From positions 1 through 60,174 of the IMG/VR virus record IMGVR_UViG_3300038425_000132: a stretch of 60,174 bases of DNA. One strand, given 5' to 3'. Shown here piece by piece: positions 2,670 through 39,541 of the stretch (position 1 is the first letter of the stretch; each line of letters starts with the position of its first letter). The translations under genes and the position numbers were made by a program. Origin of the DNA: a virus. The notes below the pieces were generated by a model. The model had not been told where the DNA came from. It searched no databases and saw only the letters and a program-made list of their open reading frames with translations.

Positions 2670-3602
2670 TTATCTATCAAGTCTTGCTTTAATTATGTCC
2701 GAAAAATCAAAAGCTTTTGACTTCTCAATCAATTCATTTACTGCTTCAAATCCAAGAATAGATGGGTCTTTTTCTCCCAATCTGATTAAATGAATATCAA
2801 TTTGATTAACTTGTAAATCCTCAATTCTGTCAAAAATATCCACTGCTTGTTTTAATGCATCATTATCCAAAACAATATTAACCCTCTTAACTTTATTAGA
2901 TACAACTGCCAGTTTTAAGGAAAATGGTAATGTAGTTCCGAACAGAGGTATTGCATTATTTCTAACTGACATTGCATCAAACGTGCCTTCCACTAATGTT
3001 ATGGGTTCATGCCAATTCACAAATAACTCAAATCCAATAATATCTTTGGACCAAGGTGGTAACATATATTTATACCAATTTCCTTCATGGTAAGCTCTAG
3101 CTGCAAAAAAGTTTACATTACCATCTTTATCATAGGATGGAACTAGAATTCTTTGTTTATAGATACCCTCTTCACAATAACCAATATTATAACGAAGAAT
3201 ATCATCCATTGTAACTCTTCTATCTCCAAGATATTCTATAGCATGTCCATAATCAAACGATTTTGATGGTTTCCAAAGAGGTATAAATTCGTTTGGTAAA
3301 GATAAATTTTTTGGTCGCTCTACTTCTGTTATAATTCGCTTCCACGATTTCCCTACAATTTTATACAATTCATCAAAATAAGCTTCTTTGACTTTAAGTT
3401 TATAAAAAAGCGAACTAATGGACCTGCCACAAGAGTTACAAACCCAACAATGCCATTCTTGAGTTCTAACATTGACTTCCAATTTTCTTTTATAGTGTGA
3501 ACAAAATGGACAGAAATAAACTGCTTCTTCACCCTTCCGGATATAAGAAATTTGGTTCAATACCTTATCAAGAAGAGAAAATAATTGTGATTCCTTTAGC
3601 AT
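2670..3602 (-). CDS. 61: DNA primase, T4 gp61-like (zinc finger plus TOPRIM)
   Basis: 310 aa. The N-terminus has a CHC2-type zinc ribbon (CPFC at 31-34, then HCWVC around 51-55) that recognises template initiation sites. The TOPRIM catalytic half shows LVEGTFDAMS (metal-binding Glu in the first motif) near residue 205 and VLDNDALKQA near 245 (Asp motif). The central region RILVPSYDKDGNVNFFAAR is typical of DnaG/gp61 RNA polymerase folds. It makes RNA primers for lagging-strand synthesis, normally with a gp41-type helicase not in this window. Length is close to the usual ~340 aa. The fragment CNSCGRS after the zinc ribbon may be a further ligand pair. Confidence 0.9.
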   Translation of the reverse strand: MLKESQLFSLLDKVLNQISYIRKGEEAVYFCPFCSHYKRKLEVNVRTQEWHCWVCNSCGRSISSLFYKLKVKEAYFDELYKIVGKSWKRIITEVERPKNLSLPNEFIPLWKPSKSFDYGHAIEYLGDRRVTMDDILRYNIGYCEEGIYKQRILVPSYDKDGNVNFFAARAYHEGNWYKYMLPPWSKDIIGFELFVNWHEPITLVEGTFDAMSVRNNAIPLFGTTLPFSLKLAVVSNKVKRVNIVLDNDALKQAVDIFDRIEDLQVNQIDIHLIRLGEKDPSILGFEAVNELIEKSKAFDFSDIIKARLDR

Positions 3603-36674: not shown

Positions 36675-36750
36675 TGGTGGAGCCTAGGGGATTCGAACCC
36701 CTGACCTTCTCAATGCCATTGAGACGCTCTACCAATTGAGCTAAGACCCC
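36675..36750 (-). tRNA. tRNA-Ala(GGC)
   Basis: G3-U70 pair, acceptor GGGGTCT/AGGCTCC, anticodon loop ATGGCAT, encoded CCA. Confidence 0.95.
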
Positions 36751-36760
36751 AATAAAATTT

Positions 36761-37040
36761 ATGACACAGACATAGCCGCGGTTCTGTTTTATCCTTACAT
36801 TTCTCTAAGCGTGCTATTACCCAGACTTTATAACGAGCAGCACTACTCTTGTCCCTATTTGCACTTGCATCTAATTTGTGGTATTAACGAATCATACCGA
36901 TTAACCCCTTTCAAGGCTCACTACCAGTTTTTCTCTGGCTACGGCTCGGTTGCAACATTTACTGATTCTCCCAATCATCTGCTGTGATGCCGCGAACTTC
37001 CTCTAACACATTTAGGTTAGCGTAAGGTCACTTATGTCAC
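36761..37040 (-). ncRNA. rnpB: RNase P RNA (M1-like), phage-encoded
   Basis: About 280 nt. The conserved 5' element AGAGGAAGTTCGCGGC (bacterial consensus GAGGAAAGUCC) lies at 36990-37004 and the 3' element ACAGAACCGCGGCTATG (consensus ACAGAACCCGGCUUA) at 36771-36787. Between them P4 can form with compensatory bases (CGCGG/CCGCG). P2 is CCTTAC/GTAAGG placed just before ACAGAACC, P3 is CTAAC/GTTAG, and the ends pair as P1 (GACATA/TATGTC). Order and spacing match bacterial RNase P RNA, which with a host protein removes 5' leaders from pre-tRNAs. It has its own promoter (37071-37099) and an upstream terminator. The specificity domain looks reduced. Confidence 0.8.
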
Positions 37041-37070
37041 AAAAAAATTTCAAAGAACTCTTTATCTATA

Positions 37071-37099
37071 AATATAAATCAAATACATAAAAATGTCAA
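37071..37099 (-). promoter_or_regulatory. sigma70-like promoter of the RNase P RNA
   Basis: TTGACA (37094-37099), 17-nt spacer, TATATT (37071-37076). Transcription would start about 25 nt before the RNA's first helix. Confidence 0.8.
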
Positions 37100-37104
37100 G
37101 CCTT

Positions 37105-37143
37105 AAAACAAAAATCGTGTCAATAACAAAATTTTATTGACAC
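37105..37143 (-). terminator. Rho-independent terminator after tRNA-Leu
   Basis: GTGTCAATAA/TTATTGACAC stem (10 bp, 7-nt loop) followed on the minus strand by GATTTTTGTTTT. It insulates the RNase P RNA from the upstream tRNA-Leu transcript. Confidence 0.8.
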
Positions 37144-37160
37144 AATTCACTATATAAAAT

Positions 37161-37249
37161 TGGTGCTACCAGAGGGATTCGAACCCACAAGTCCAATTAC
37201 GGACCCCAACTTCTCAGGCTGGTCTGTATGCCAATTCCAGCATGGTAGC
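37161..37249 (-). tRNA. tRNA-Leu(GAG)
   Basis: Class II, acceptor GCTACCA/TGGTAGC, anticodon loop CTGAGAA, variable-arm stem, A73, encoded CCA. Confidence 0.95.
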
Positions 37250-39449: not shown

Positions 39450-39541
39450 TGGCGGAAGCCAAGGGAATCGAACCCCTGCCGGATTTTATTCCGGTCCAGT
39501 TTTCAAGACTGGCGCAGCAAACCAACATCTACCTGACTTCC
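39450..39541 (-). tRNA. tRNA-Ser(TGA)
   Basis: Class II, acceptor GGAAGTC/GGCTTCC, anticodon loop CTTGAAA, long variable arm, encoded CCA. With CGA, GGA and GCT this makes four Ser isoacceptors. Confidence 0.95.

Follow-up and report, generated by a model that had tools for sequence, protein, structure and literature searches.

In the tRNA array of a 365 kb T4-like phage lies a gene that is, on the evidence of homology and covariation, a class A-type RNase P RNA, and this RNA recurs in many phages, including one in culture. Few ribozymes are common to nearly all cells; RNase P RNA is among them. T4 depends on the RNase P RNA of its host for its tRNA array; here, likewise, phage pre-tRNAs need RNase P, with the difference that the phages bring an RNA of their own. 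No earlier report of a phage RNase P RNA was recognised among the matches listed in a search of the open-access literature (subscription journals, preprints and supplements lay outside that search), and we provisionally regard such an RNA as unreported. The main texts of a paper on huge phages (PMC7162821), of those describing Stenotrophomonas phage DLP6 (PMC5349666) and Microcystis phage PhiMa05 (PMC13157829), and of a survey of viral tRNA genes (PMC6409571), each searched by term, do not mention RNase P.

The RNase P RNA gene and its carrier

The window, that is, the entire stretch of DNA analysed, constitutes one IMG/VR record in full (60,174 bases). The gene is located on its minus strand, in the tRNA array between tRNA-Leu(gag) and tRNA-Ala(ggc), and measures 286 nt from P1 to P1, its limits being taken from the P1 helix (Table 1). 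An earlier note on this DNA had placed an RNase P RNA inside the array and named a covariance search as the check. The match to the Rfam bacterial class A model RF00010 bears this out, with tRNA neighbours on both sides: it extends over window positions 36758-37039 and model positions 1-367 of 367, scores 44.1 bits, and has E-values of 4.6e-11 (15 kb), 1.2e-12 (386 bases) and 4.5e-14 (record). These E-values are significant, yet the score lies under the curated Rfam cut-off for class A, a gathering threshold of 100 bits, so that Rfam at default settings reports tRNAs alone in the window. RF00010 gives no score to helix P4 or the P6-type contact, both of which cross nested helices. The folding energy is ordinary for a single sequence (z -0.76; equalled or bettered by 47 of 200 shuffles), and the case for an RNase P RNA thus rests on homology and covariation.

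Table 1. Features of the RNase P RNA locus in the window.
Feature	Position	Strand	Remarks
RNase P RNA gene	36758..37043	-	RF00010 44.1 bits, E 4.6e-11; limits from P1
P1 5' strand TTTGTGACATA	37033..37043	-	pairs with 36758-36768
P1 3' strand TGTGTCATAAA	36758..36768	-	pairs with 37033-37043
P2 5' strand CCTTAC	37022..37027	-	pairs with GTAAGG 36793-36798; greedy search and RF00010 alignment
CR-I including P4 5' strand GAGGAAGTTCGCGGC	36989..37003	-	ninth base is the bulged U
CR-V including P4 3' strand ACAGAACCGCGGCTA	36773..36787	-	8/8 pairs with CR-I; covariation in 14 RNAs
P5 5' strand CATC	36986..36989	-	pairs with GATG 36868-36871; covaries between lineages
P6-type contact (J5/7-L17), L17 side CTGCT	36836..36840	-	can pair with AGCAG 36979-36983; by eye, window sequence only
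P15 GTGC 36861-36864 / GCAC 36811-36814, with L15	36811..36864	-	RF00010 alignment and script
L15 motifs: AAATAGG on one side, GGGTAA on the other	GGGTAA within 36817-36823	-	GGGTAA presumed tRNA CCA-binding
Promoter-like TTGACA-17-TATATT	37071..37099	-	11/12 matches; number of sites equals shuffle expectation
Terminator-like hairpin, upstream	37112..37148	-	1 found, 0.4 expected
tRNA-Ala(ggc)	36675..36750	-	7 nt downstream of P1; presumed substrate
tRNA-Leu(gag)	37161..37249	-	next tRNA upstream, 117 nt away

The RF00010 alignment pairs P1, P2, P3, P5, P7 and P15 and leaves a small S-domain; it contains no P18. P4 forms all eight of its pairs and retains the bulged U despite four pairs that differ from the RF00010 consensus, all four of them compensated, and the near-invariant bacterial P4 sequence itself is not kept. 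The parts listed in the earlier note are accordingly present: both universal elements, CR-I and CR-V, are found, P1, P2 and P3 can be drawn, and P4 pairs through compensating bases. The span given there, 36761-37105, covers nearly the whole RNA and also takes in an upstream promoter-like stretch, the RNA itself occupying 36758-37043. A promoter of its own and an upstream terminator, proposed in the same place, are plausible from the two motifs, both of which exist, but in numbers near shuffle expectation (two promoter-like sites against 2.0; one hairpin against 0.4).

The RNA resembles bacterial class A RNAs (RF00010; E. coli M1 RNA) in CR-I, CR-V, P1, P2, P4 with its bulged U, P5, and P15 with GGU in L15. 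It is unlike them in being phage-encoded, mostly in or near tRNA arrays, and in having P4 bases swapped with compensation; in the window copy P18 is also missing and the S-domain is small, and no RnpA gene was found in 21 records. CPR bacteria have diverged RNase P RNAs that likewise were found only at lowered model cut-offs and miss outer helices including P18, but these are cellular and essential, and the P4 changes do not figure in the passages that describe them (PMC8172020).

Sequence identity points to a T4-like phage of 365 kb as the carrier: the window aligns with a portion of a 365,299 bp record (G003) at 99.8% identity, in four blocks that total ~60.8 kb. From that record, taken in 20 kb pieces whose borders truncate ORFs, 130 ORFs of 250 to 1,499 aa were obtained, of which 129 were scanned, 60 against PHROGs and Pfam and 69 against Pfam only. 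Among the matches listed are a T4-type capsid protein, portal, terminase, tail sheath and RIIA, together with a B-family DNA polymerase, RecA, a CCA-adding enzyme and two RNA ligases. ARAGORN finds 53 tRNAs in G003 and 39 in the window, and the 'about fifty' of the earlier note therefore holds for the phage. One of the 53 (loci L216-L234) has a CUA anticodon ('Pyl' by ARAGORN) and is a possible amber suppressor, and the tRNA-Ser(tga) at window positions 39450-39541 scores best with a selenocysteine tRNA model, under the cut-off (40.2 of 47 bits).

Recurrence in other phages

IMG/VR was scanned with patterns drawn from the conserved elements of the phage RNA. The scans gave 20 further records with an RNase P RNA which, with the window, make up 13 lineages of non-standard P4: the window clade (L021, L110 from G003, L202 and L204), L073 (G002), L203/L205 (G005/G007), L206 (G008), L214 (G009), L263 (G010), L265 (G011), L266 (G012), L270/L276/L278 (G013/G019/G020), L271 (G014), L272 (G015), L273 (G016) and L274/L275 (G017/G018). 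A loose pattern returned at least 120 stretches, of which a screen for an upstream CR-I left four, L021, L073 and L110 among them being RNase P RNAs. Loci L026, L215, L264, L267, L268, L269 and L277 were chance pattern matches, P4 not being kept by eye, and are excluded from the counts. Each of the 13 lineages, represented by one record, has 22-53 tRNAs (G008, G014 and G018 counted without their last 0.8, 0.4 and 11.1 kb).

RF00010 scores across these lineages range from 27 to 191.1 bits, and the RNA of L266 gives no match to the model. The gathering threshold is passed by 3/9, 0/1 and 5/11 records in three sets; control genomes also fall short, 3 of 11 having an RF00010 match under the threshold. 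Rfam-based annotation probably overlooks further phage RNase P RNAs.

A P4 scan with the standard 12' base produced six more loci, which stand outside the 16-lineage counts given below. P4 is standard in L374, L375 and L377 and has one pair swapped in L373, L376 and L378; five of the six pass the gathering threshold, L377 alone lying under it. L373, L376, L377 and L378 have 6 to 22 tRNAs, L374 has one and L375 none, and the RNA is 0 and 5 nt from two neighbouring tRNAs in L373 and 0 nt after one tRNA in L376. The 202 kb viral contig of L375 also contains a group I intron match (3325-3528, 68.4 bits) ~3 kb from the RNase P RNA. Because the patterns behind some of the 13 lineages fix P4 bases, including G at 12', the lack of a standard P4 in those lineages is a matter of ascertainment; patterns that leave 12' free found five lineages, with G at 12' in all five. 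A collection of 84,980 cellular species gave no pattern match, which says little, since these patterns require G at 12' and short spacing and could not match ordinary rnpB.

Among named phages, blastn with one phage RNA yielded five short matches, two of which proved to be RNase P RNAs (DLP6 and LR756511). In the cultured Stenotrophomonas phage DLP6, which has 30 tRNA genes (PMC5349666), the RNA at KU682439.2:105774-106022 scores 54.7 bits with RF00010 (E 3.3e-17); the region bears no annotated feature, and the next tRNA-Arg is at 106026. The RNA of LR756511 (595 kb) was recognised by its elements and P4, and that of LR756502 (642 kb) was found via LR756511; RF00010 misses both, which are very small (L352 1323-1559, 237 nt, and L363 1474-1702, 229 nt, respectively, with P1 chosen by script). 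Several phage RNA queries run by blastn against 50,697 phage records returned no further recognisable RNase P RNA, and with the window RNA as query all matches among those listed (20 of 500 records) cover the query ends, which hold the flanking tRNAs. By RF00010, a short pattern or both, an RNase P RNA is present in 3 of 14 named records (DLP6, LR756511 and LR756502), a non-random sample that the three positives entered via sequence matches. By the same means none was found in ten of the 14, including XacN1, which we take to be a very tRNA-rich phage; a phage tRNA array thus does not require one.

A further candidate, in the remaining one of the 14 records, that of Microcystis phage PhiMa05 (MW495066), scores 251.8 bits with RF00010 in surroundings that look cellular, and was dropped. 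Beside it in the PhiMa05/MaAM05 record (L362; MW495066.1:105000-126000) are fliM, pomA, fabI, glyS, secF and secDF. By its gene content the segment resembles a stretch of bacterial chromosome, a point of relevance to the claim that PhiMa05 exceeds all other phages in number of ribosomal proteins.

The carriers were also searched for phage genes. A T4-type capsid protein is encoded in G003, G012 and G015, and terminase PF03237 is matched in 9 of 18 records, 8 of them over the cut-off. Large ORFs were scanned in sets of 24 or 25, and these contain terminase, portal and baseplate genes in G002, a portal gene in G018, portal, head protein and RII genes in G014, and terminase, portal and DNA transfer protein genes in the pooled G007/G008 set; the sole hallmark of G016 is a terminase match under the cut-off. 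The spread over varied phage types suggests several acquisitions or one old one. NAD-related genes occur in several of these phages (G003, G007/G008, G014, G018 and DLP6), encoding nicotinate or nicotinamide phosphoribosyltransferase and, in some, NAD synthase, ADP-ribose pyrophosphatase or ADP-ribosylglycohydrolase.

Compensated pairing in P4 and conservation of other helices

P4 is described as the most conserved region of RNase P RNA, with 11 of its 21 universally conserved nucleotides (PMC4919922). Across 16 lineages, composed of the 13 from IMG/VR plus DLP6, LR756511 and LR756502, 127 of 128 P4 cells are paired, compared with a mean of 100.4 and a maximum of 117 in 20,000 shuffles of the 3' strands among lineages, and the bulged U is kept in 16/16. 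Pair 7-13' is seen as G-C, A-U, U-A and C-G, and pairs 12-9' and 11-10' each occur in four forms. In a MAFFT alignment that leaves out G009 and G013 and so has 14 lineages, 97.0% of P4 and P5 cells are paired against 74.0% after shuffling, 32 cells have changed on both sides against 7.0, and the covariation score is 0.592 against 0.152 shuffled and at most 0.103 slid; these shuffles preserve column make-up, not relatedness, and the scan patterns had fixed several P4 bases in the pattern-found lineages. By this comparative evidence P4 is a structure under selection, which shifts its bases while keeping its base pairs.

The earlier note had staked its reading on the conservation of P2 and P4 in related phages. 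The compensated pairing of P4 is kept, as the above counts attest, and P2 is drawable, with helices of 6-10 pairs in 14/14 lineages (G007 and G015 left out); P1 helices have 6-17 pairs in 16/16 entries, which represent 15 lineages. Both come from greedy searches with no random control, two of which differ in the P1 chosen for G007 and G015. P15 with GGU beside its 3' strand is identified by script in the window and in 15/16 lineages and by eye in LR756502, the helix chosen by the script in G008 and DLP6 differing from the manual reading. AAAUAGG is present in L15 by eye in 9/13 IMG/VR lineages, the window among them.

Some of these phages have few tRNA genes that end in CCA: 3/32 in G011 (loci L290-L294), 3/26 in G019 (L295-L301) and 0/34 in G014 (L315-L322). 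Each encodes a CCA-adding enzyme, an enzyme matched over the cut-off in 8/18 records. Loss of the L15 GGU in the CCA-poor phages was considered and ruled out, as the GGU is kept on structural reading. The AAAUAGG side of L15 is altered in G011, G014 and G019, and also in G012, where 40/41 tRNA genes end in CCA. A CCA-adding enzyme in the CCA-poor lineages fits a tRNA maturation line owned by the phage.

Proposed maturation, action and alternatives

In 6 of 15 lineages the next same-strand tRNA begins 7-9 nt past P1 (window 7, G008 8, G012 9, G014 7, G016 9 and DLP6 7 nt), a spacing given without random control and similar to the tRNA-tRNA gaps of such arrays (DLP6). The spacing script found no downstream tRNA within 2 kb in 4/15 lineages, and in G002 it placed the next tRNA at 1982, versus 80 nt downstream in other tRNA searches. 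With a gap of 7-9 nt, a single cleavage by RNase P would complete the tRNA 5' end and, with it, the 3' end of the ribozyme; the spacing thus suggests, beyond what the earlier note had claimed, an origin for the 3' end. In yeast mitochondria, the RNase P RNA RPM1 has its place of transcription between tRNAs. Like RPM1, the phage RNA is situated inside a tRNA transcription unit, with ends that tRNA cuts would shape; unlike it, RPM1 is an organelle gene with an unrelated protein partner, whereas the phages presumably use host RnpA. We infer this partner because RnpA (PF00825) was found in none of 21 records, many of them fragments though G003 has 365 kb, with 10/14 control genomes positive.

In our reading, which we hold with considerable confidence, the RNA would be a working ribozyme, matured from phage tRNA transcripts and processing phage tRNAs with host RnpA. 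It would be transcribed with or beside the tRNA array and then matured out of the array transcript, its 3' end released by its own RNase P cut at the 5' end of the neighbouring tRNA. The predicted fold is the core of bacterial class A (the window copy lacking P18), in which GGU of L15 would hold the tRNA 3' CCA, the compensated P4 with its bulged U would bind the catalytic metal, and the RnpA of the host would serve as protein subunit. The phage would thereby gain the capacity to process dozens of pre-tRNAs by RNase P, probably once host transcription stops.

The catalytic metal in P4 is placed at the phosphates of A50 and G51 and at O4 of the universally conserved U52 (PMC4919922). By motif order, these residues should correspond to phage P4 positions 7, 8 and 9. 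Positions 7 and 8 vary together with their paired partners and position 9 is U in 16/16, as expected if backbone geometry and the U matter and the adjacent bases do not. The altered bases beside the bulged U, unlike cellular ones, could lower activity.

A functionless, decaying copy of host rnpB, gained by recombination next to tRNA genes, would account for the low scores of several lineages (27-54 bits; none for L266) and for the shortened outer domains, but decay would not compensate, and the paired strands of P4 and P5 change in concert far beyond the shuffled number; with the bulged U also present in every lineage, we consider such a copy very improbable. Somewhat less improbable, though still unlikely, is a decoy or regulator whose fold binds host RnpA or pre-tRNAs and alters host RNase P with no cutting of its own. 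As no RnpA was found in the 21 phage records, the RNA and host M1 RNA would be competitors for the protein, and altered bases flank the bulged U, both of which would suit such a role; a protein decoy would not need the bulged U, the P4 pairing and the L15 GGU, parts for catalysis and for binding the substrate 3' end that are all kept, and a place in the tRNA array suits processing.

Bacterial DNA mis-filed as viral, in which case the RNA would be cellular, is scarcely credible as a general account. It seems true of the dropped PhiMa05 segment, with its high-scoring RNA among secDF, fliM, glyS and fabI, and may apply to G010 and the six contigs of standard or near-standard P4, which lie outside the hallmark-bearing records, and to G016 with its weak terminase match only. 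Against it, G003 encodes T4-type capsid, portal, terminase, sheath and RIIA, DLP6 is cultured and its genome complete, and for these two the idea is contradicted; portal, terminase, head or baseplate genes are found in G002, G018, G014 and pooled G007/G008, and terminase exceeds the cut-off in 8/18 records.

A wider picture can be drawn, to which we assign even chances: widespread phage ribozymes, with a P4 that evolves by compensatory swaps around a fixed U and with self-release by a tRNA cut, would form with CCA-adding enzymes and RNA ligases a phage-owned maturation line to which the host gives at most a small protein subunit. Some phages, it appears, do not leave tRNA 5' maturation to host RNA alone. 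The phage copies are natural P4 variants in which pairing and the bulged U are kept and adjacent bases changed, so the question whether sequence or shape matters in P4 becomes testable with natural molecules, and DLP6, being cultured, opens it to the bench.
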